NCBI GenBank assembly: GCA_903933715.1
Contig: CAIZLD010000031.1
Coordinates: 1-64,000 of the forward strand
DNA: 64,000 bases
Reading direction: 5' to 3'
Source: an uncultured Spartobacteria bacterium
GTDB taxonomy: Bacteria; Verrucomicrobiota; Verrucomicrobiia; Chthoniobacterales; Chthoniobacteraceae
The first letter of the stretch is position 1; the number at the start of each line of letters is the position of its first letter. Positions 24,038-41,142 of the stretch are shown here, piece by piece. A program made the translations under genes and the position numbers. The notes below the pieces were generated by a model that saw only the letters and a list, made by a program, of their open reading frames with translations, had not been told where the DNA came from and ran no database searches.

Positions 24038-26383
24038 CTACACCCGAAAACTAGCTAGAGCAGGATGATCCAGTTCCGCCGCCACCTGCCGCCAGGCTGC
24101 GGCTTGGGCATCGTTTTCGACATCGGGCAAAAAGCCGAATTCCAGATAGATTTTTATTGCCGTGAGGCGTGAATTGCTCGCGGTTAGGCATGCCGCCTCG
24201 TGCCACTGCGCCAATTGGTTCATTGCAAATGTCATCGCCGAACGGGCAAGGCCCTTGCCCCGCTGCGACGGCCGGATCGCGATCCAGTGGATCCGCCCGG
24301 CATCCTTTCCCTTGAAGCCGCGAATGTACCAGGCGCTGATGGTGCCAACCGCCAGATTTTGCGAATCATAAATCAGAAAACACCGCCTTTCGATCGCCTG
24401 CGGATCATTTCCAAACTCGCGCCAGAAGAGGTTGTCGTCGATCCTGAGAATCGGTTCGCTGTCCCGTTGCACATCGGTCCAGAGCGCGCCATCGGTTTTC
24501 CTCATTGGGCGAATCGAGTAACCCTCGGGTAGCGGATGCTGTGGAATATCGCGCATGTGCGGACGCTGCATTTGAATCCCGATATCACGGGATGTCCCGC
24601 AAGCGTCTTTTTGGGGCTGTGGAACTTCTCTTCCATGGCGCTGGTGAAACATCCTCTGCACAATCGGCCATGCCGCCAGACGACGGCGGTCGCGGGTCAC
24701 CACGCCAAAGGGGGCTGTGGTCATGTAATTAATAAAGGGTTCTTCTGGCCAAGGGTGATGGGCGTAGCACCAGATCAACGCCCCGCAAACCGCGTCATTC
24801 GTCAAGCCAGCGAACTGTGCCTCCAGCGACAATGCCTGGGCGTCTTCGCCGAGGGTATTGTTGAAGATGCCTTCCAGAGCCGGATGCCCGAATTCGACAA
24901 CCAGAATTGGCTTTCCCGGGTAGCGCTGTTGAAGTTTCAGGAGTTGTTCCTTCCAACCGGCTCCCACGCTTGCCGGGTCTCGCAAAAAACTGTCGCGGTG
25001 GTCGCCCCAGACCGTCGGGTAATATGTGAGGCAGATGACATCATCGGCGTCGAAGGCAGGATGATCAACCCACGCACATGATGAATGAACCGCTAAACGA
25101 GTTGGGTCGATCTGGCGGGAGAGGTTGCACAGTTCGGCATTTCCGGCCACAACTTCTGGCAGGTTTTCATGCGTCTCGTTGCTGACAGACCAGAATATGA
25201 TCGACGGATGGTGACGATCGCGCTGAATCATGGCAGCCAATTGCCTCTTGGCAATATTCAGCGTCTGAGCGCATTTCTCTTCACCTATCGTGTTTCCCCG
25301 CCACCAGTATAGCGGTATCTCACTCATGACAAGCAGCCCGATCTCGTCACAAAGATCCAGCTCATCCGGATGGTGTGGATAGTGGCACAAGCGAACGAAA
25401 TTCGAGCCGAGGCTTTTCATATCCAGCAGATCGCGCCGGGCAGTTTCCATGTCAGGGCACATGTCTGTAACGGGCGAATCCTCATGACGGTTGAGACCGG
25501 TCAGAAATATTGGTTTCCCATTCAAGAAAAGCTTATCGCCTTTTGTTTGAATGGTGCGGAATCCGATCCGAATATCTTGCTGATCAACGGGCTTTTCATT
25601 GCATATCAGCGTTGCTTTCACGGAATATAGCGATGGAACTTCCGGACTCCACAGCATGGGCGTATCAACGGACAACGCGAAATCATATGAAATTTGCTGG
25701 CCGGGCTGGACCGGTGATGATGCCGAATACAATCCGGACTCGCACAATGTTCCAGCGGCATCCCAAATTTCCAGACGGCAGATGGCGTTGGCTGCCTCGC
25801 CGGAATCGTTGGCCACGCACAAAGTGCCAGAAAACCTTCCCTCGGCGGACGATTCGGAAACGTTAATGCATCCGATATGCAGCATGGGAGTTGAGACCAA
25901 CGTCACTTCCCGCAGGATCCCGCCAAAAGGCCGCCAGCCGCGTTCAAGACCCGGTACCTCACCGGCTCTGCGGGTGTTGTCCACGCGGACGGTCAGCACG
26001 TTTTCTCGATCCATTCGGATCATCTGATCGATCCGGAATTCAAAAGGCAGAAACCCGTCGGCATGCTGGCCGATTAGTTGTCCGTTAAGCCAGACGTCGG
26101 CGATGTTGTTGACAGCCTCAAAGTGCAAAGCGATCCGCCGCCCCGCCCAGGAAGGATCCACGCGAAAGGTCCGATGGAACCAAGCAATGCCTTCGTAGGC
26201 CTCCATGCCCGGCACGATATTGTCAAGCCGACCCGGCACGTTGGCCTCACGCCAATAACAGACATCCAGATTTTCAGCCCAGTAGCCAGCCTTTTCCCCC
26301 TCATTATTCACATCAGGCTGATATCTCCACACGCCGGACAAGTCTTTGGTTTGACGCCTATTATGAAAAGAAGTCTCATTCAT
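24038..26383 (-). CDS. GH2 glycosidase (beta-glucuronidase-like) fused to a GNAT acetyltransferase
   Basis: 781 aa. Residues 1-590 form a GH2 enzyme: jelly-roll sugar-binding domain (VWLNGQLIGQHADGFLPFEF), immunoglobulin-like domain, and TIM barrel with NRHEDSP, FVRLCHYPHHPDELDLCDEIGLLV, acid/base Glu403 (WSVSNETHE) and nucleophile Glu497 (VVEFGHPALEG). Residues about 620-750 are a separate GNAT domain: GYSIRPMRKTD, WIAIRPSQRGKGLARSAM (acetyl-CoA loop) and LTAIKIYLEFGF. No signal peptide is seen, so it should act in the cytoplasm on an imported glycoside. The frame is continuous across the join. Divergent from the AraC gene at 26486. Confidence 0.88.
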   Translation of the reverse strand: MNETSFHNRRQTKDLSGVWRYQPDVNNEGEKAGYWAENLDVCYWREANVPGRLDNIVPGMEAYEGIAWFHRTFRVDPSWAGRRIALHFEAVNNIADVWLNGQLIGQHADGFLPFEFRIDQMIRMDRENVLTVRVDNTRRAGEVPGLERGWRPFGGILREVTLVSTPMLHIGCINVSESSAEGRFSGTLCVANDSGEAANAICRLEIWDAAGTLCESGLYSASSPVQPGQQISYDFALSVDTPMLWSPEVPSLYSVKATLICNEKPVDQQDIRIGFRTIQTKGDKLFLNGKPIFLTGLNRHEDSPVTDMCPDMETARRDLLDMKSLGSNFVRLCHYPHHPDELDLCDEIGLLVMSEIPLYWWRGNTIGEEKCAQTLNIAKRQLAAMIQRDRHHPSIIFWSVSNETHENLPEVVAGNAELCNLSRQIDPTRLAVHSSCAWVDHPAFDADDVICLTYYPTVWGDHRDSFLRDPASVGAGWKEQLLKLQQRYPGKPILVVEFGHPALEGIFNNTLGEDAQALSLEAQFAGLTNDAVCGALIWCYAHHPWPEEPFINYMTTAPFGVVTRDRRRLAAWPIVQRMFHQRHGREVPQPQKDACGTSRDIGIQMQRPHMRDIPQHPLPEGYSIRPMRKTDGALWTDVQRDSEPILRIDDNLFWREFGNDPQAIERRCFLIYDSQNLAVGTISAWYIRGFKGKDAGRIHWIAIRPSQRGKGLARSAMTFAMNQLAQWHEAACLTASNSRLTAIKIYLEFGFLPDVENDAQAAAWRQVAAELDHPALASFRV

Positions 26384-31197: not shown

Positions 31198-31518
31198 TTA
31201 TGGTGAAATGAATCCAATCACCCGCCGCTGCCTCTCCCACGCTGCCTCATCGCACTCCCGCCGCATCTCCCTTTCGGTAACGGCGTCCCGCTCGCTCGGC
31301 GGCCCCGGAAGAAAGAGCAGCCGCTCCTGAATCTCCGGCGCGAGATTCTCGAGGCCCTGATGTGGGCGAAAGGTATTGGGGGGCTCACTTTCTGTTATCA
31401 TCTCATCCTCAGCAGGTACTTCCGCGATGAACCTCAAAACGTGCGGGGGCGGGTAATTGATCCAGCCGTAGCGTCTACCGAAATCGATTGCTCTCTGGTC
31501 CGGACCAATCGCTTCCAT
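31198..31518 (-). pseudogene. Remnant of a recombinase-associated HTH protein
   Basis: A minus-strand frame of about 106 aa. Its second half, HQGLENLAPEIQERLLFLP followed by ERDAVTEREMRRE, resembles the segment after the HTH in proteins that accompany site-specific recombinases, where LAPEIQE-LLFLP and RDPITERELR recur. The helix-turn-helix that should precede it is missing. Its ATG (31518) overlaps that of norZ on the other strand. The context suggests a decayed mobile-element gene. The remaining parts of 31022-31516 show no other gene. Confidence 0.4.
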
Positions 31519-33832
31519 GAACTCAAAAACACCCCCTCCCTGCCAGCAATCTCCTTCGCGGCGCACCCTGCTCGTATCCCGGCACTGGGTTCAGGCTGCG
31601 ATACTTGTGTTTCTCTTTGGCTTCTTTGTTCTCGGATTCCTCGCCTATCGTACCTACACGAGCCAAGCTCCAATCCCGGGTAAAACCGTCGATCCGCAAG
31701 GTGGGGTTGTGTTCACGCGCGCCGACGTTATTGGTGGCCAACAAGTGTTTTTGCGCAATGGCCTTATGGAATATGGTTCAATCTTCGGCCACGGAGCATA
31801 CCTTGGCCCCGACTATACCGCCGATTGTCTGCGGCGCTGGGCGCTGGCGGTGATGGAATCCAAGGGCGGCGCGGCTTCGGACAAGGCGCGGGCAGAAACA
31901 TTGCGCGAGTTTAAAGCGAATCGCTACGATCTGGCCACGGATACGCTGAATTTTTCCGGCGATCAGGCGAAGGCAGTCAACGATCTGAAGGGCTATTACG
32001 GCAAATGTTTCGGTGAACCAACCTCGCGATTTGGACTCCGACCCAAAGCAATTTCCGATGAGGAAGATATCAAGAAACTTACATCATTCTTGTGCTGGGC
32101 TGCGTGGGTGACTGCAGCACAGCGGCCCGGCCTAGACTATTCATACACAAACAACTGGCCACCGGAACCGTTGGTGGGCAACGCGGCCACTGGTGACGCG
32201 GTGGTTTGGAGCGTCCTTTCGCTTATTGCCCTGCTGGGCGGAACCGGACTCCTGTTTGCAGCCTTCGGACGCTGGGATTTCCTTGGCTGGCACAGCCGAG
32301 AGCGCGAGAGTCTTTCGTTCCGAGCGCCGGATTCTGTGGCGCTGACTCCCAGTCAACGAGCCTGCGCCTGGTTCTTCCTGGTGATGGTAACCTTGTTCCT
32401 TATTCAGACGATGGTTGGCGGTGCCTCCCAACATTACAGGGCGGAACTCTCCAATTTCTTCGGGATCGATCTCGCTCGCTGGTTGCCGTTTAACCTTGCC
32501 CGAACGTGGCATTTGCAACTCGCCATCTTCTGGGTCGCCACGTCGTTTCTCGCGGCGGGGATTTTCCTCGCGCCGATGATCTCCGGGCAGGAGCCCAAAG
32601 GCCAACATTGGCTCGCTTACAGCCTGCTTGCGGCTCTGGCTTTGGTTGTATTTGGTAGCATGGCGGGCGAATTTGCCGGAATCCACGATTTGTTTCGTCA
32701 GAACTGGGCATGGTTCGGTGCCCAAGGATTTGAATACCTCGATCTGGGCCGCTTTTGGCAGATATTGCTAATTGTGGGGCTGTTCTTCTGGGTGGCGATT
32801 CTCTATCGCGGCTTGAGAGGCTACCTTGCAGACGAGAACAAAGGCAACATGCCATGGCTTTTCTTTTTCTCGGCCCTCTCGATTCCTGCCTTCTACGCAG
32901 TCGGCCTCCTCGCGAGGCCCTCGGTGCATTTCACCACCACGGATTTTTGGCGTTTCTGGGTTGTCCATCTTTGGGTGGAGGATTTCCTGGAACTCTTCAC
33001 CACAATTATGGTCGCCTACCTCTTCGTGCTACTTGGCGTAGTCCGCGAACGCGTGGCCCTGACCGTCATCTACCTCGATATCGTGCTCTACTCGGCGGGC
33101 GGCGTTATTGGGACGATGCACCACGTCTATTTCTCTGGCGAACCGGCCGTCCATATGGCCCTCGGCGCGTTCTTCTCTGCGGCAGAGGTCATACCGCTAA
33201 CATTTCTGACCGTTGAGGCATGGCGTTTCTTGCAACTCGGCTCGGTGCAGCAGGCGAAGTCGGGTGCCCCATTTCCTCATTTTTGGGCGGTGATGTTCCT
33301 GGTGGCAGTCGGCTTCTGGAACTTCCTAGGTGCTGGCATCTTCGGCTTTTTAATCAACCTGCCCATCGTCTCTTATTACGAAATCGGAACCGCCCTAACG
33401 GCAAACCACGCACACGCCGCTATGATGGGGGTCTACGGCATGCTATCGGTCGGCTTGGCGCTATTTTGCCTGCGTTATATGATCCCCGAACCGCGCTGGT
33501 CGGATCGAGCGGCTAAAATCAGCTTCTGGTCGCTCAATATCGGTCTTTTCTGGATGGTCTTTGTCACGCTCTTCCCGCTGGGCATTCTCCAGCTCTATAC
33601 CTCCGTCAACGAAGGCTATTTTGAAGCGCGCAGCCTCAAGAATATAACAAGCGGAACCAATGCGCTGCTTGAATGGATGCGGTTGCCGGGCGACGTGATC
33701 TTCATCGTTGGGGGCGTGCTTCCGATCATTTACATTTGCTGGCTTTGCGTGCGTTTCATGAGACCGTATGTCAAAGAGAAGGAACCTCGACCGACCCTCT
33801 TCACAGAGGTCAAAGAAGAAGACGGATTGTAA
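31517..33832 (+). CDS. norZ: Quinol-dependent nitric oxide reductase (qNOR)
   Basis: Single-subunit cytoplasmic-membrane enzyme reducing two NO to N2O with quinol. 771 aa, normal for qNOR. The N-terminal soluble extension (GGVVFTRADVIGGQQVFLRNGLMEYGSIFGHGAYLGPDYTAD) is typical. The catalytic subunit follows with about 12 further membrane helices. Heme/metal ligands are visible in NLARTWHLQLAIFW, GVIGTMHHVYFSG and ALTANHAHAAMMG; the conserved Glu in AAEVIPLTFL is present. No cytochrome c subunit is nearby, as expected for qNOR. Likely used for NO detoxification, as no other denitrification gene is in the window. Confidence 0.95.
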   Translation: MNSKTPPPCQQSPSRRTLLVSRHWVQAAILVFLFGFFVLGFLAYRTYTSQAPIPGKTVDPQGGVVFTRADVIGGQQVFLRNGLMEYGSIFGHGAYLGPDYTADCLRRWALAVMESKGGAASDKARAETLREFKANRYDLATDTLNFSGDQAKAVNDLKGYYGKCFGEPTSRFGLRPKAISDEEDIKKLTSFLCWAAWVTAAQRPGLDYSYTNNWPPEPLVGNAATGDAVVWSVLSLIALLGGTGLLFAAFGRWDFLGWHSRERESLSFRAPDSVALTPSQRACAWFFLVMVTLFLIQTMVGGASQHYRAELSNFFGIDLARWLPFNLARTWHLQLAIFWVATSFLAAGIFLAPMISGQEPKGQHWLAYSLLAALALVVFGSMAGEFAGIHDLFRQNWAWFGAQGFEYLDLGRFWQILLIVGLFFWVAILYRGLRGYLADENKGNMPWLFFFSALSIPAFYAVGLLARPSVHFTTTDFWRFWVVHLWVEDFLELFTTIMVAYLFVLLGVVRERVALTVIYLDIVLYSAGGVIGTMHHVYFSGEPAVHMALGAFFSAAEVIPLTFLTVEAWRFLQLGSVQQAKSGAPFPHFWAVMFLVAVGFWNFLGAGIFGFLINLPIVSYYEIGTALTANHAHAAMMGVYGMLSVGLALFCLRYMIPEPRWSDRAAKISFWSLNIGLFWMVFVTLFPLGILQLYTSVNEGYFEARSLKNITSGTNALLEWMRLPGDVIFIVGGVLPIIYICWLCVRFMRPYVKEKEPRPTLFTEVKEEDGL

Positions 33833-34227: not shown

Positions 34228-35499
34228 ATGAACGCCCCAGCTATTCTCGCAAGCCTGTTTTTTCGTGACAGCTTCCGAGTGGTAATTACAATTTATTGCC
34301 TGCTGTTTTGGTTATCTATGATCCCTCACCCTTTTCTCGGTGTTCTATTCCATTGGTTGGGCGGCCTCGCATCCGGCTCATTCTATGTCCCCTATCGGCA
34401 AGTCCGGAAATGGTCGTGGGAAACCTACTGGCTTGTGGGCGGCTTTTTTTCCTGGATCGTTTGCCCGTTGACCTTCGGACTGCTGATGACCCAAGATCTC
34501 CCGGGCGTTCTTTTACAACAATCGACGGCGACTCTTTGGTGGACTTACTTCTTTGGGGTATTGTGGGGCTTTGGCGGGCTCACCTTCGGGCTTACGATGC
34601 GGTATTTGGGAATGTCGCTGGGGATGGGGGTGGCGCTCGGGTATTGCGCCGCGTTTGGCACGCTGATGCCTCCCCTCCTGAAGACCTTTATCGGTTCCAT
34701 TCCCGTGCCGGAAACTCTCGGCCAAATCGCCGCGACCGGCCCAGGCCAGATCACCCTCAGCGGGATTGCGATCTGTATCCTGGGGATCGCCATTGCGGCA
34801 ATGGCCGGGTTGACCAAGGAAAGGGAAATGCCGGAGGAGGAGAAAAAGAAATCAGTGGCCGAGTTCAATTTCACCAAAGGCATCCTGGTCGCCACGTTTT
34901 CGGGAATTATGAGTGCTTGTTTTTCGTTTGCACTCACGGCTGGCAAGCCCATCGGGGATGCCTCGGAACTCGCAGGAACCGCCGCGATCTGGTCCGGTCT
35001 GCCCAAATTGGTCGTCGTGCTCCTGGGGGGCTTTACCACGAATTTCATCTGGTGTGTTCTGCTGAATGTTAAAAACCGGAGCGGTTATCAATATCTTGCT
35101 GCCACGGTACGGCCCGAACACGCCCACCACGGCGGCGAGGGGGGAGGAGAACATGGCGGCGCCGTCGCAACAGCGACGATTCCCGCCGTGAAAGACCTGC
35201 GCGTCCCGCGACTCCGCAATTACCTTTTCTCCGCGCTGGCAGGTGTGACGTGGTATTTCCAGTTTTTCTTCTACACCATGGGCGAAAGCCAGATGGGGAA
35301 ATTTGGATTTGCCAGCTGGACCCTGCACATGGCCAGCATTATCATTTTTTCGACAATGTGGGGGTGGATCTTCCACGAATGGAAAGGTTCCAGCCGCAAG
35401 GCACACCGCTTGATCGCCTCGGGCATCCTGGCGCTCATTCTCTCGACCATCATCATCGGCCTGGGCACCTATCTCAAGGGCGTGACCGGCGCTCATTGA
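34228..35499 (+). CDS. RhaT-like L-rhamnose/proton symporter
   Basis: Ten-helix inner-membrane symporter related to RhaT. Diagnostic segments are ASGSFYVPYRQVRKWSWETYWLVGGFFSWIVCP, FGLTMRYLGMSLGMGVALGYCAAFGTLMPPL and the C-terminal WYFQFFFYTMGESQMGKFGFASWTLHMASIIIFSTMWG. The core family would begin near ATG 34318. The longer frame from ATG 34228 adds a hydrophobic segment (RVVITIYCLLFWLSM) just after the att junction. An insert between helices (residues about 295-318) is His/Gly-rich. It may import rhamnose or another 6-deoxysugar. The start is uncertain. Confidence 0.87.
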   Translation: MNAPAILASLFFRDSFRVVITIYCLLFWLSMIPHPFLGVLFHWLGGLASGSFYVPYRQVRKWSWETYWLVGGFFSWIVCPLTFGLLMTQDLPGVLLQQSTATLWWTYFFGVLWGFGGLTFGLTMRYLGMSLGMGVALGYCAAFGTLMPPLLKTFIGSIPVPETLGQIAATGPGQITLSGIAICILGIAIAAMAGLTKEREMPEEEKKKSVAEFNFTKGILVATFSGIMSACFSFALTAGKPIGDASELAGTAAIWSGLPKLVVVLLGGFTTNFIWCVLLNVKNRSGYQYLAATVRPEHAHHGGEGGGEHGGAVATATIPAVKDLRVPRLRNYLFSALAGVTWYFQFFFYTMGESQMGKFGFASWTLHMASIIIFSTMWGWIFHEWKGSSRKAHRLIASGILALILSTIIIGLGTYLKGVTGAH

Positions 35500-35549: not shown

Positions 35550-36497
35550 TTACACCAGCCCCGTGATTTGAACGGCTTCAGGCCGACCCAGGGCTTGGCG
35601 GGCTTGTTCGAGAAGCGATGCCCCCAGATCAGGATCCAGCAAAGGCTGGTTTTCCAGCGGCCACTTGCTGCCTAGCTTGGCGTATTTTGCGCCACACAAA
35701 TTGTTGAAGGCACAGAGTTCCCACCGCTCAAGCCGATCCCCCAGGTTCTCCGCAAGGAAACGGCCGATGGAGGTGACATTTCCGGCCGTTGCCGTGTAGC
35801 CGGGTATGAGGGGTGTGCGAATCCAAAGCGCGGGATATCGGCCCAGTGGGGTCCGGAAATCGCGAATCCTGAGCAGGTTTTCCAGAATCGGCTCGTTGGG
35901 AACGCCGGTGAACCGCTGGTGCCGCTCCGAATTCATTTCTTTGATATCATAGAGCACCAGATCGGTATGCGGCAGCACCTGCTCAAAGTTCTTCCATGGG
36001 GGAAACCCGCAGGTGTCGAGCGCCGTGTGGATCCCCTCGGCCTGGCACGCTCTAAAAAAGGCGGAGACGAATCCCGGCTGGAGGCACGGTTCGCCTCCGG
36101 AAAGCGTCACTCCACCCCCGGAGTTTTTAAAAAAGAGGCGTTCTGCGAGCGCTTCCCGCAGCAGTTGCTCCACCGTCCACGGCCTGCCAATCAACTCAAT
36201 GGCTTTGCTCGGGCACGGATCGACGCATTTACCGCAGCCGGTGCAGCGTTCGCGATCAATGGACAGCCCCTGCGCGGTGAGCGTTAACGCCTCTTCCGGG
36301 CAGGCTGCGATGCAGTCGCGCGCACCGATGCACTTGCGCTCCGTCCACCAGATTTCCGGCTGCGGGGAGATGCTCTCCGGGTTATGGCACCAGGTACAGC
36401 GCAAGGCGCAGCCCTTGAGAAAAAAGGTGTTGCGCAATCCCGGGCCATCATCGGTCGAGAGCCGGTGGATGGCAAAGAGAAGCGCAGTTTCCTTCAT
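35550..36497 (-). CDS. Glycyl-radical enzyme activating protein (radical SAM)
   Basis: 315-aa activase that installs the glycyl radical on the enzyme encoded just upstream. Motifs: the N-terminal STDDGPGLRNTFFLKGCALRCTWCHNPE with the CxxxCxxC radical-SAM cysteines; an inserted double ferredoxin-like domain (CIGARDCIAACPEEA; CTGCGKCVDPCPSKA) typical of activases for glycerol-dehydratase-type rather than PFL-type partners; and GGGVTLSGGEPCLQPGF. It starts 3 bp after the partner's stop, so the pair is one operon. It requires anaerobic conditions. Confidence 0.93.
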   Translation of the reverse strand: MKETALLFAIHRLSTDDGPGLRNTFFLKGCALRCTWCHNPESISPQPEIWWTERKCIGARDCIAACPEEALTLTAQGLSIDRERCTGCGKCVDPCPSKAIELIGRPWTVEQLLREALAERLFFKNSGGGVTLSGGEPCLQPGFVSAFFRACQAEGIHTALDTCGFPPWKNFEQVLPHTDLVLYDIKEMNSERHQRFTGVPNEPILENLLRIRDFRTPLGRYPALWIRTPLIPGYTATAGNVTSIGRFLAENLGDRLERWELCAFNNLCGAKYAKLGSKWPLENQPLLDPDLGASLLEQARQALGRPEAVQITGLV

Positions 36498-36500
36498 GCC

Positions 36501-38765
36501 TCAGAGTGTCTTGTAATTGACTCGCTCGACAAACTCCTCCTGGAATTTGCGATCCATGACGACAAAGTGCGCGGAATAGCCGGTCACCTTGACGACGATC
36601 TCCTGGTGCTCAGGCAGGTCTGGCTGCTCCATTGCCGCGTGGAGTTTCGCCATGGAAAGGACGTTCAGGTTGATCTGAACGCCGCCCATTTGGAAGAAGG
36701 AGGTTGCGAACGGCTCCACCAAATCTCCGCGCCGCCCCTCCTTCGGGAAGAACGTCGGCTGGAGTTCCACCTGGAGCGAGCCGCCTTGGTATTTGGAGAA
36801 ATCGAGCTTGCAGAACGAGCGCATGGTGGCCGTCATGCCTTCATGGTTGCGCCCGTGCATCGGGTTCATGCCGTGGGCGACGGGTTCGCGACGCTTGCGG
36901 CCGTCGGGTGTGGCGCCCAGCATGGGGCCAGCGTAGGTGTGGCCCATGAATTGGAAGAGCGAGGGACGGAAACAGAACCCCTTGATGTTGCGCTTGCTCT
37001 CCAGAACCTCGCGGACCTGTTCGGAAACGCGGATGGCCATGGCGTCCGCCCCTTCATGGTCGTTGCCAAACTTGGGCGTGTTGAGGAACTCCTGGCGCAT
37101 CGATTCCTTGCCCTCCCAGTCGCTGGCAACGGCATCGCGCACTTGCGCAAGCGTGTATTTCTTTTGCGCGAAGACGAGCTGCTCGATGGCGTAGAGGGAA
37201 TCGGAAACGTTGGGCACGGCAAGCACGTTGACGGAAGTGAACGCGTTATTGACCGAGCGGCTGTCGGTGATGTCGCGCCCTTTATCCATCGGGCCGTGAG
37301 CGCAAAAGGAGGTGACCATTTCGGGCCAGACTTTGGGCTGCCAGAGATAGGTGGCGTTCTTGAAATCGCGCAAGGCGTTGGCCGTGCAATCCACCTCGTT
37401 TTCATAAATTTTCCAGAACGCCTCGAAATCGGGCGCATTCTGCTCGATGGCGGCGTCGATGGCCCGTTGCATCGGCTGGACGAGAACCAGGCAGTTCACG
37501 TCGTGGTCGCTGTATTCATTGCCGGGCGAGCAATACCACTGGCATCCGCTGTAGGAAACATTCCATGCGTCGCTTTCCGGGTAGCCGGAACGCAGTTCGC
37601 TCGCGCGGAACAGTTCATAATTGAGCAAGGTGGGGCAACCCGCGCCGTGGCGTCCCACCACGTCGCACGCATAGTTCCAGAATTTGGGATCAATGTCCGC
37701 GTGCCACATGACGCCGAGGTGATTGTAGCCGCCGACCATGTCAAAGGCTTCCAGGCAGACCCAGCTTGTCTCGCAGGTCGCATCGCAAAGCTCCCGGTTG
37801 CGCCCGCCCAGTGAAAAATAGTTGCCGTAGCGCAGGAACAGTTCGCCGACAAGATCGCGCGCCTCGTCCCGGGTGATGCGTCCGGCAGCGATGTCCGCAT
37901 CATAAAAAGGTTGCAGGAGCTGATCGAGCCGCCCGTAGCCGTTGCCATGGCCGTGCATGCGCTCAGCGATCTGGAAAAACTGAATCCACTGGATGGCCTC
38001 GTGCAGGGTCTGCGGCGCTTTTTCAGCAATATTCGAGCACACTGCGGCGACTTCCGCGTAAATGCCGCGCGTCTGCGCATCCTCCTCTGCTTTCTCCAAT
38101 TGCGCGGCTTTTTCCGCATAGCTGCGGATATATTGCATGATGCCCAGGGCAATGTCCTCCGCGGCGCGGAGGTAGGAGGCGCTTTCTTCGTTGCCAAATT
38201 CCTCAAACTTGCGCCGGTTGGCGCGGACCTTGGAAAGGAGGCCGCCCCAGCCCAGCTTCAGGCCGATGCTCAGATCCGGGCAGGTGTGGGTGAAGCTGAT
38301 GCCCCCCGCGCCGAGTTGGCGCGCCGCGTATCCCAGGTCATGCACCTCCTGCGGGTAACGGAAGGTGCGCGCTTCATCGAGTTGCCAATGGAAATCGCCG
38401 ACAATCCGCTCGCAAGGGTCGATCACCGCCGGGCTGTGGGTGATAAAAAAGCGGTAATCCTGCGCCCAGTTTTCAGCCGTGTTGGCCAATCCCTTTTGAC
38501 GGGAAGGCATTTCATCTACAAACGGATACGGCATCCCGGTGTCCACGCGGCAGTTGTGGTCGCCAATATTGATGCGGCTGGATGAAGCTTGCTCGCCGGT
38601 AGCAGGGGCGAACGCCTCGGATTTACCCGACCAGTGATAGACGAGGAACTCGGCGTTATCGCAATAAAGATCGCGCTTGTGGGCGATGTTGAGGGCCACG
38701 CGCCTCCGGTTGATGGTTTGGATGCGCGGGGACATTGGGGGGCGGGTGGAAGCGTGGTGGCTCAT
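36501..38765 (-). CDS. Glycyl-radical enzyme with atypical active-site motif
   Basis: 754 aa from ATG 38765 behind AAAGGAG (the frame is open to 38900). The C-terminal VVKVTGYSAHF carries radical Gly729, matching the RVxGYSA consensus. The active-site cysteine loop reads NVSYSGCQWYCSPGNEYSD: Cys408 aligns with the thiyl Cys, but the usual Cys-x-Glu (GCVE) of dehydratases and lyases is replaced by Cys-Gln-Trp, with a second Cys412. It also lacks the Cys-Cys pair of pyruvate formate-lyase. It is followed by its activase and preceded by a FucP-like transporter, so a sugar-derived substrate is likely. The reaction is not predictable. Confidence 0.85.
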   Translation of the reverse strand: MSHHASTRPPMSPRIQTINRRRVALNIAHKRDLYCDNAEFLVYHWSGKSEAFAPATGEQASSSRINIGDHNCRVDTGMPYPFVDEMPSRQKGLANTAENWAQDYRFFITHSPAVIDPCERIVGDFHWQLDEARTFRYPQEVHDLGYAARQLGAGGISFTHTCPDLSIGLKLGWGGLLSKVRANRRKFEEFGNEESASYLRAAEDIALGIMQYIRSYAEKAAQLEKAEEDAQTRGIYAEVAAVCSNIAEKAPQTLHEAIQWIQFFQIAERMHGHGNGYGRLDQLLQPFYDADIAAGRITRDEARDLVGELFLRYGNYFSLGGRNRELCDATCETSWVCLEAFDMVGGYNHLGVMWHADIDPKFWNYACDVVGRHGAGCPTLLNYELFRASELRSGYPESDAWNVSYSGCQWYCSPGNEYSDHDVNCLVLVQPMQRAIDAAIEQNAPDFEAFWKIYENEVDCTANALRDFKNATYLWQPKVWPEMVTSFCAHGPMDKGRDITDSRSVNNAFTSVNVLAVPNVSDSLYAIEQLVFAQKKYTLAQVRDAVASDWEGKESMRQEFLNTPKFGNDHEGADAMAIRVSEQVREVLESKRNIKGFCFRPSLFQFMGHTYAGPMLGATPDGRKRREPVAHGMNPMHGRNHEGMTATMRSFCKLDFSKYQGGSLQVELQPTFFPKEGRRGDLVEPFATSFFQMGGVQINLNVLSMAKLHAAMEQPDLPEHQEIVVKVTGYSAHFVVMDRKFQEEFVERVNYKTL

Positions 38766-38799: not shown

Positions 38800-40170
38800 T
38801 CAGTGAATGGACATCGGGGCGGCCGCGTTCTCGCCGACGGGCTCCATGTCGCGGCTGAAAAGCTTGCGCCAGCCAAACCCGTAAGCAGCAACAAAAACAA
38901 AGCAGGCCAACGGCATCATGAAACCGACGCCCATCGAGTATTTGTCCGCCAGCCAGCCCATAAACATCGGCATCACCGCTCCGCCGATAATCGCAGTGAC
39001 CATGCAGGAACTGGCGAACTTGGTCCGCTCGCCCAACCCCCGGATTCCCAGCGCAAAATGAGTGGGATACATGATCGACATGAAAAAGAAGCTCGCCATG
39101 AGCGCGGCCACAGATATCCAGCCCAGGGGGAGGATGACCAGCAGCATCAATACCACGTTAATGGAAGCGTAAACGCCCAGTGTGAAATGCGGCCGGCAAA
39201 ACCGCAGAATCGCGCTGCCCGAGAACCGGCCGATGGTAAATAGCACAAAAGCGAGCGAGAGCATCAGCCCTGCTCCATACTCTGTAATATTCCAGGCGCC
39301 ATTCTGAAAATATTTGGTCGCCTCGGGAAGCAGGCCGGCCAGCCAGGGCGGCAAGTGAGGCGTGTAGCGCTCGTCCCTGACGTAATTGATGAAAAAGCTG
39401 AAAATGCCTGTCTGGCCCGCGACGTAAAGGAACTGAGAAACAATCGCCAGCAGGAAGTGCCATTCCTTGAACAGCGGGCGCTCGCTCCGTTTTCCATCGC
39501 CGCCCGCCTTGGATTCCTCTTCCGCCTGGAGATCGGGGAGCGACGTTTTGTAAAAGACGACCACCAGGATCGCCACCAGCCCGGCCACAAAAAGGTACGG
39601 ATAGGCCAGCGAGGCGTTGCTGGTGTTGACGCTTCCCGTTTTGGATAAAATGAACTGGCTGCCGATCATCGGGCCCAAAATCCAGCCCAGCGCATTGCAG
39701 CTCTGCGCGAGGTTAATGCGCGAGACACCCGAGTCCGCCGGGCCGAGCACGGTCACATACGGGTTGGCCACCGTCTCCAGGAACGTGAGGCCCGATCCCA
39801 CAATGAAAAGCGCCCCCAGGAAACAACAGAACACCACAACTTCCGGGGCGGCCACTTTGGTCACCGGGACAAAAAGCAGCGAACCCGAGAGCACAATGCA
39901 CAAACCCGATAGAATGCCTCCCCGGTAGCCGAACTTCCGAGCCACCCAACCGGAGGGGAACGCCATCAAAAAGTAGGCCGCATACCATGCCGCCTGGACG
40001 GCTGCAGATTGGGTTTTGCTGATCCCAAGCGAGTTTTGAAAATGCTTGTTAAGCACATCGATCATCCCGTTGCAGAGCCCCGAGGAGAGGAAAAGCGTGC
40101 ACACGAGAGCAAAGGTCAGGAGATGATTCACTCCGTCAGCAGCGCGGAAAATACTATTCGATTGTTTCAT
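38800..40170 (-). CDS. FucP-like sugar/proton symporter (MFS)
   Basis: 456-aa major-facilitator transporter of the FucP group. Characteristic pieces: LLTFALVCTLFLSSGLCNGMIDVLNKHFQ (helix 1), WYAAYFLMAFPSGWVARKFGYRGG, ETVANPYVTVLG, RINLAQSCNALGWILGP and a C-terminal MYPTHFALGIRGLG. Start ATG 40170 matches the family N-terminus; the frame extends to 40266. It is the first gene of the minus-strand unit with the glycyl-radical enzyme and activase (34 bp gap), so all three likely act on one imported sugar. Confidence 0.88.
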   Translation of the reverse strand: MKQSNSIFRAADGVNHLLTFALVCTLFLSSGLCNGMIDVLNKHFQNSLGISKTQSAAVQAAWYAAYFLMAFPSGWVARKFGYRGGILSGLCIVLSGSLLFVPVTKVAAPEVVVFCCFLGALFIVGSGLTFLETVANPYVTVLGPADSGVSRINLAQSCNALGWILGPMIGSQFILSKTGSVNTSNASLAYPYLFVAGLVAILVVVFYKTSLPDLQAEEESKAGGDGKRSERPLFKEWHFLLAIVSQFLYVAGQTGIFSFFINYVRDERYTPHLPPWLAGLLPEATKYFQNGAWNITEYGAGLMLSLAFVLFTIGRFSGSAILRFCRPHFTLGVYASINVVLMLLVILPLGWISVAALMASFFFMSIMYPTHFALGIRGLGERTKFASSCMVTAIIGGAVMPMFMGWLADKYSMGVGFMMPLACFVFVAAYGFGWRKLFSRDMEPVGENAAAPMSIH

Positions 40171-40256
40171 TCTGAAAAGGGGAAGCCTGGAACGTGTCGG
40201 TGCAAAGGCAGACAATGTCAAAATATATGAAACAGTTCTCTTCCGGTAAATACATG

Positions 40257-40287
40257 TTCTTGACAAGAATATGCACGATCTTAATAT
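40257..40287 (+). promoter_or_regulatory. Promoter with overlapping palindrome, AraC regulator gene
   Basis: TTGACA (40260-40265) and TAATAT (40282-40287) are separated by 16 bp. The -35 is embedded in the perfect palindrome TTCTTG-A-CAAGAA (40257-40269). It sits in the 144-bp gap between divergent fucP-like and AraC-family genes, so a bound regulator could control both. Confidence 0.55.
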
Positions 40288-40314: not shown

Positions 40315-41142
40315 ATGATCGAAAATTTTAATTTAAATCTTCTGGCCGGGGGATGCCATCGCTCCACCCCTTCTTGGAACAAGGAAAGCGACCGCTTTGA
40401 TCAATTTTACAAATGCTACCTCCCCATCCGGGGCGAAGCCGTTGTGGAAACCACCGACGGGATATACACGATAGCTCCCGGCCAACTCTATTTTATTCCC
40501 GGCTGCCATCTGCGGCGGCAGCGCTGCGAGCGCGAGATGCTCGTCCACTGGGTGCATTTCATGCCGGAATCGTACTATCTGCATCACCGCCTGAGTTCCA
40601 TTCGCTCTGTTTGTTCCTGGCCATTGCGGAAGATGCAATGGCTCAAGGCGGATTTCGTGCGCATCGGCGAAGTCTTTGAAGATCCCGAGAGCGACCGGAA
40701 CCACCCCCGGCAGAATCCGCCTCTGGCGTTGGTGTGCCGCATTGAGGCGATCCTGATGTATCTCGTGGCGGACCTGCTGGATTCCACGGGAGGAGAAACC
40801 GACGAGGAGGGGGAGCCCGAACTGGTGCAACTCAAACCGGCCATCGATTTCATGGACAATGATTTTCGCCTGAGCCCCTCGCTGGCGGAAGTGGCAGAGA
40901 AGGCGCATCTGGCGGCAAACTACTTTCACCGCCTGTTCAAACGCAACACGGGGATCACCCCCTTTGAATATATGGAGCAAAAGCGCCTCTACGAAGCGCG
41001 CCGTCTGCTCGGCGATTGCCGGCTGAGCATCAAGCAGGTCGCCGAACAAAGCGGATATGAAAACCCGCTCTATTTTTCACGCGTATTCCGCCGCCATTTT
41101 GGCCTCCCTCCCTCCGCTTTCCAGCGCACCATGATGCCTTGA
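40315..41142 (+). CDS. AraC-family transcriptional regulator
   Basis: 275 aa. An N-terminal cupin-type sensor (GEAVVETTDGIYTIAPGQLYFIPG) is followed by the AraC HTH pair: SLAEVAEKAHLAANYFHRLFKRNTGITPFEYMEQKRLYEARRLLGDCRLSIKQVAEQSGYENPLYFSRVFRRHFG. It is divergent from the transporter/glycyl-radical operon and is its probable regulator; the palindrome at 40257 is a candidate site. ATG 40315. Confidence 0.9.
   Translation: MIENFNLNLLAGGCHRSTPSWNKESDRFDQFYKCYLPIRGEAVVETTDGIYTIAPGQLYFIPGCHLRRQRCEREMLVHWVHFMPESYYLHHRLSSIRSVCSWPLRKMQWLKADFVRIGEVFEDPESDRNHPRQNPPLALVCRIEAILMYLVADLLDSTGGETDEEGEPELVQLKPAIDFMDNDFRLSPSLAEVAEKAHLAANYFHRLFKRNTGITPFEYMEQKRLYEARRLLGDCRLSIKQVAEQSGYENPLYFSRVFRRHFGLPPSAFQRTMMP

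Follow-up and report, generated by a model that had tools for sequence, protein, structure and literature searches.

Does a glycyl-radical enzyme (GRE) whose cysteine loop lacks the usual glutamate still carry out an elimination, and if so on which substrate? The question is raised by a gene in a 64,000-nucleotide stretch of DNA from an uncultured Spartobacteria bacterium (the window). To our knowledge, the GRE eliminases studied so far all rely on this glutamate. The gene and its surroundings comprise the following features.

34228..35499, plus strand: RhaT-type symporter (NF010024, 498 bits, above the cut-off of 468), convergent with the activase gene
35550..36497, minus strand: GRE activase, a radical SAM protein (TIGR02494, 298 bits), 3 bp after the GRE stop
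36501..38765, minus strand: GRE gene, 754 aa, ATG at 38765, stop ending at 36501
37521..37544, minus strand: cysteine loop of the GRE, from the C408 codon (37542-37544) to about P414/G415, position computed from the ATG at 38765
38800..40266, minus strand: FucP-family MFS symporter (TIGR00885, 257.5 bits, slightly below the NCBIfam cut-off of 280.4)
40315..41142, plus strand: AraC-type regulator, divergent from the FucP-GRE-activase operon

An AAGGAG-like site precedes the GRE start codon, and 34 bp separate that codon from the end of the FucP-like gene, which lies upstream on the same strand. The activase carries a CX3CX2C motif plus ferredoxin-type clusters. A first-pass annotation had described FucP-like, RhaT-like and AraC genes as surrounding the GRE. 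All three are present at the coordinates above, but the RhaT gene is convergent and therefore lies outside the GRE operon. The operon contains no dedicated downstream enzyme. Elsewhere in the window, a NorB-type quinol-dependent nitric oxide reductase is encoded a short way upstream of RhaT (31517-33832, plus strand), and a glycoside hydrolase family 2 protein with a fused C-terminal GNAT acetyltransferase domain (Pfam) is encoded at 24038-26383 (minus strand).

Judged by its domains and alignments, the window gene encodes a bona fide glycyl-radical enzyme, an oxygen-sensitive type of radical enzyme. A PFL-like barrel domain (PF02901, 279 bits) is followed by a C-terminal glycyl-radical domain (PF01228, 62 bits), both above cut-off, and a genome search identifies it as the sole PFL-like GRE of the window genome. 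Its NCBIfam scores are below cut-off for the general GRE subfamily model TIGR01774 (272.5 of 678 bits), and far below every cut-off for the characterised equivalogs CutC, HypD, HPAD, IAD, HpsG and HpfG and for the pyruvate formate-lyase (PFL) equivalog TIGR01255 (99 of 994 bits). Among PDB entries, 8id0 matches best, at 200 bits. The radical residue, Gly729, sits in the segment KVTGYSAHF, and both it and C408 align with solved GREs and are invariant in all 14 sequences that share the GCQWYC loop. The expectation of a standard radical glycine and activase is thus borne out by the glycyl-radical domain, the alignment and the adjacent radical SAM activase. The fingerprint around the glycine reads KVTGY, not RVxGY, with K726 in place of Arg in 14 of 14 members, and motif searches with RVxG[FWY] would therefore miss the GCQWYC branch.

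The Cys-x-Glu (CXE) motif is a hallmark of GRE eliminases (PMC7077986, PMC8473560), as the first-pass annotation had also held. HMMER alignments set the window segment SGCQWYCSPG against VGCVETSIPG of 8id0 and IGCVEPQKPG of glycerol dehydratase (1r8w), and since these alignments pair the cysteine loops we assign C408 as the thiyl cysteine. W410 aligns with the CXE glutamate of the solved eliminases, and the window loop has C408-Q-W410 instead of CXE. The translated gene confirms C408-Q-W410-Y-C412, E417 and G729; C412 belongs to the loop, and E417 and Y418 lie just downstream. The thiyl loop had earlier been read as GCQWYC, from Cys408 to Cys412, and this reading holds in the alignment and without exception across the 14 sequences. 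The only other Cys-x-Glu in the protein, C337-L-E339, was ruled out as the thiyl loop because it is poorly conserved (the cysteine is Gly in 11 of 14) and located in a different segment.

Several further residues characterise the branch. His160, His273 and Asp422 are conserved throughout it, and the H273 column is variable in other GRE groups (MAFFT alignment). C412 and C367 are invariant within the branch and nearly private to it. By residue counting alone, window R600 matches the sulfonate-binding Arg678 of IslA, a match that we do not count as evidence. AlphaFold models built from shallow alignments of 12 and 14 sequences reached pLDDT values of 59.9 and 64.7, respectively. The cysteine and glycine loops fall below 50 in both models, so no active-site geometry was taken from them. 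Foldseek with the second model (pLDDT 64.7) retrieves GREs in general, at a TM-score of about 0.4, and served for entry titles rather than to place the enzyme. Scans of viral contigs yielded too few GREs to deepen the alignment.

The 14 GCQWYC sequences, window included, come from Verrucomicrobiota, Bacteroidota, Chlorobiota and Spirochaetota, and the relatives are 49-79% identical to the window GRE. Eleven of them (54-79% identity) came from a scan of genome contigs, the other two (61% and 50%) from genome searches. None of 56 relatives of the window genome carries such a gene; the single match among them, L014, is 29% identical and has the loop GCGEY. Further carriers number two among 387 Verrucomicrobiota genomes, one in 395 genomes of a Bacteroidia sample and four in 197 genomes of the Treponema order. 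Because the carriers are rare and patchy, their distribution suggests horizontal transfer. An activase lies near the GRE at each GCQWYC locus examined.

A tree of 65 GREs, CutC, HypD, PflD and YbiW among them, groups the 14 GCQWYC rows in one clade (SH-aLRT 100). The motif thus marks a cluster of its own, placed in no characterised GRE cluster and matched by no NCBIfam equivalog. Its sister is a separate branch of 25 other Cys-x-Trp rows (support 100). The wider Cys-x-Trp clade was noted at the following loci.

L017-L030, L032-L034, L036, L037, L090-L092, L099, L136, L137: wider Cys-x-Trp loci

The more distant Verrucomicrobiota matches mostly read GCNW, GCHW or GCQW, not GCVE, and the Cys-x-Trp loop is also found in Treponema (L090-L092, L099) and in plasmid-borne genes of Flammeovirga and Persicobacter. 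Together, the 39 Cys-x-Trp rows split from the Cys-x-Glu rows with support 100, at a point flagged by the program as a meeting of long branches. The residues common to both Cys-x-Trp groups (W173, R269, W410, E417, Y418, E482, N634, Q665, N699 and T728) support their kinship independently of the tree, and the R269 position is Glu in 23 of 23 Cys-x-Glu rows. Glu at +9 and Tyr at +10 after the cysteine occur in 39 of 39 Cys-x-Trp rows; among CXE rows, Glu at +9 occurs in two only (L093 and L094). The tryptophan and the second cysteine had both been taken as gains of this enzyme. The cysteine is indeed nearly private to the branch, position +4 being mostly Ser or Ala in other Cys-x-Trp enzymes, but the Trp at +2 marks the larger clade. 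Neither Cys-x-Trp group is covered by a solved structure or an NCBIfam equivalog, as judged by close PDB matches and NCBIfam profiles. The wider clade carries no annotation beyond 'pyruvate formate lyase family protein', a label that is probably misleading. Searches of the open literature, which leave subscription papers largely uncovered, turned up neither a GRE with a Cys-x-Trp loop nor a fucose-linked one of this type. On these comparisons the GCQWYC GRE is a variant within a known superfamily, and what appears new is a fucose-linked clade of its own with a Cys-x-Trp loop.

L-fucose is plentiful in the glycans of plants, algae and animals, and genes for its use recur around the GCQWYC GREs. 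In L001 (Verrucomicrobia subdivision 3) the gene order is GRE, alpha-L-fucosidase (GH29), activase. Two alpha-L-fucosidases lie directly upstream of GRE and activase in L003 (Marinilabiliaceae), and the nearer one is 58-62% identical to the L001 fucosidase across phyla. FucP-family symporters adjoin the GRE operon in four genomes: the window, and L002, L009 and L010, where the order is GRE, activase, FucP. At the Treponema locus L058, AraC, GRE and activase genes face an opposite strand with an ABC transporter, FGGY kinase, FucI, a LacI regulator and the L-fucose mutarotase FucU. FucI scores above cut-off in 12 of 14 GRE genomes; among 56 relatives of the window genome that lack the GRE, it does so in 7 (Fisher p 3e-7, kinship uncorrected, with carriers spanning several phyla and a comparison set from one order). 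Alpha-L-fucosidase genes are present in 10 of the 14 carriers, including 32 in genome G090. The fucosidase and fucose-operon linkages are independent in three phyla, and the link of the branch to L-fucose is well supported by this gene context. A deoxysugar or sugar-acid derivative had been proposed as substrate; the operon neighbours agree with the deoxysugar fucose, but no rhamnose link of GCQWYC GREs was found beyond a RhaT gene near two of the loci. At one locus (L056:10386-11588, plus strand, genome G416), the gene directly after the GRE encodes a 400-aa protein with no Pfam or NCBIfam match.

Carrier genomes also hold other routes for fucose. The window genome encodes FucI on contig C56, and its contig C54 (L124, 502-11499) carries bacterial microcompartment (BMC) shell genes, a PduL-type phosphotransacylase, a CoA-acylating aldehyde dehydrogenase, a lactate-dehydrogenase-like protein, rhamnulokinase, class II aldolases and an LdhH/GlpC-like protein. 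In gene content this locus looks like the Planctomycetota-Verrucomicrobiota compartment type, in which fucose and rhamnose pass through lactaldehyde, which is taken to lactate (PMC8857213). With FucI and these compartment genes, an ordinary fucose route exists beside the GRE. The near-complete genome G090 has the GRE with its 32 fucosidases and lacks FucI, a class II aldolase and the compartment. A cluster at L128:4682-12541 in this genome encodes an aldo-keto reductase, FucP, L-fucose mutarotase, a phosphatase-like protein, an FGGY kinase, a polyol-type Zn-dehydrogenase resembling galactitol-1-phosphate dehydrogenase and a GatZ-type aldolase, with neither FucI nor FucA. From its genes, L128 plausibly represents an alternative, complete-looking fucose route, possibly a reductive one through fucitol. 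We had considered that in G090 the GRE might stand in for FucI/FucA and dropped this reading, as L128 holds this alternative; the GRE is therefore linked to fucose but may be dispensable for its breakdown.

Since this distinct branch usually adjoins genes for L-fucose uptake or release, the GCQWYC GRE probably catalyses a step of fucose breakdown that has yet to be described. The best explanation of the FucP-GRE-activase operon with its divergent AraC gene, to which we give a probability of roughly 0.42, is a fucose-linked GRE subfamily acting as a radical eliminase on a fucose-derived C6 vicinal diol. The activase would place the radical on Gly729, and Cys408 would then become a thiyl radical that abstracts hydrogen from the vicinal diol of an L-fucose-derived C6 compound; candidate substrates are L-fucose, L-fuculose and L-fucitol, either free or as phosphates. 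Loss of a hydroxyl would follow in a dehydratase-type step aided by His160, His273 and Asp422. The proton-accepting role of the missing glutamate would either fall to another residue or be dispensable. Glu417 is the first candidate for this base, by conservation within one clade only. The product would enter the ordinary fucose route that is also present in most carrier genomes.

A different chemistry had been implied from the loss of the glutamate. In HypD the CXE glutamate is essential and the E436Q variant inactive (PMC7077986), so its loss may mean another reaction class. The loss itself is confirmed by the alignment, but a changed chemistry does not follow from it, with dehydratase-like residues retained. 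Because H160, H273 and D422 are kept and Glu417 is invariant at +9, the enzyme could still run an eliminase-type reaction that uses another base. The earlier suggestion of an undescribed enzyme activity is reasonable. In a wider and more tentative reading, the whole undescribed Cys-x-Trp branch might act without the CXE glutamate on intact carbohydrates, the GCQWYC enzymes taking a radical step on L-fucose or L-fuculose. Such a step, if real, would mean a deoxysugar breakdown route so far not known and would add a radical step to anaerobic L-fucose breakdown. A whole branch lacking the loop glutamate tests either the need for that residue in radical elimination or the limit of known GRE chemistry, and the GCQWYC branch, fucose-linked and encoded in a small operon with its own activase, offers an assayable handle.

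The main alternative, which we consider unlikely, is a 1,2-propanediol dehydratase without the usual glutamate, converting L-1,2-propanediol from fucose fermentation (reduced lactaldehyde) to propanal. Every fucose route seen in carriers would supply this substrate, as FucI, FucK and aldolase should give lactaldehyde just as the aldo-keto reductase, dehydrogenase, kinase and GatZ route of G090 should, and GRE propanediol dehydratases are part of known fucose and rhamnose compartments (PMC6325248, PMC4762007). H160, H273 and D422 also match the diol site of glycerol dehydratase. The CXE motif used by the known glycerol and propanediol dehydratases (PMC7077986) is nevertheless absent here, and no locus examined has genes for processing propanal next to the GRE. 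Only 5 of 14 carriers possess BMC shell genes, which in no case adjoin the GCQWYC GRE. The compartment of the window genome looks like the lactaldehyde-to-lactate type (PMC8857213), and an operon with fucosidase and symporter genes suggests a step earlier in the pathway.

The fucose linkage could instead be incidental, the enzyme acting on another substrate of the FucP-like transporter, such as a sugar or sugar acid, as in the wider Cys-x-Trp clade. The sub-threshold score of the window FucP-like protein would fit this, as would the sugar-porter that takes the place of FucP beside the GRE of G090, and the genes around other Cys-x-Trp GREs encode Gfo/Idh oxidoreductases, xylose-isomerase-like proteins, FAD oxidoreductases or GH47 rather than fucose functions. 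Against independent linkages in three phyla, we regard coincidence as improbable. We are more doubtful still of a thiol-assisted enzyme, in which Cys412 would join the Cys408 thiyl either as in PFL (acyl transfer after C-C cleavage) or as in ribonucleotide reductase (reductive loss of a hydroxyl). The invariance of the nearly private Cys412, and of Cys367, speaks for such a role, but the PFL cysteines are adjacent where those of GCQWYC are spaced by four residues, the PFL model score is far below cut-off, Ser or Ala mostly replaces Cys412 in the other Cys-x-Trp enzymes, and no CoA or thioredoxin link was found at GCQWYC loci. A degenerate or inactive GRE, as loss of the CXE glutamate and of the fingerprint Arg might indicate, is scarcely credible given that Cys408, Gly729 and an adjacent activase are kept in 14 of 14 members despite wide divergence across several phyla.

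The radical eliminase that we favour can be set beside several known systems. The PflD/YbiW-type anhydrohexitol-phosphate GREs (8id0, 8id7, 8yjo) share its fold and superfamily, and 8id0, the closest solved sequence, is by its entry title PflD crystallised with a sugar-derived anhydrohexitol phosphate. These enzymes differ in their GCVE loop, occupy a separate part of the 65-GRE tree and have no fucose link; their neighbours in E. coli are PTS and aldolase genes. Glycerol dehydratase residues H164, H281 and D447, which contact glycerol in that enzyme, correspond to window H160, H273 and D422 (HMMER, 1r8w), while E435, Y339 and Y640 correspond to W410, W335 and F604. Glycerol and 1,2-propanediol dehydratases (1r8w/1r9d, 5i2g, 9rco) have a CXE loop, unlike the window GRE. 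Propanediol dehydratase shares the link to fucose metabolism, but its compartment genes are absent beside the GCQWYC GRE.

Pyruvate formate-lyase PflB (Cys418-Cys419) resembles the window GRE in combining a second loop cysteine with a glycyl radical; its cysteines are adjacent, whereas the window enzyme has Cys-x3-Cys with the second at +4. Among IMG/VR contigs, L146-L149 (up to 220 kb) carry a complete PFL-like gene with an adjacent Cys-Cys loop (ACCVSAMKVGKQMQFFG) beside phage structural-looking genes. HypD (6vxc) is a GRE whose aligned His160 is kept in the window enzyme, which scores 203 of 1100 bits against the HypD NCBIfam model. HypD requires Glu436 of CXE and Asp278 (PMC7077986), where the window GRE has Trp410 and His273. 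The uncharacterised Cys-x-Trp GREs of Verrucomicrobiota, Flammeovirga, Persicobacter and Treponema, about 25-33% identical to the GCQWYC branch, share with it the Trp at +2 and the Glu-Tyr pair at +9/+10; they differ in their GCNWMS/GCHWMS-type loops, which lack Cys412, and in their non-fucose neighbourhoods.
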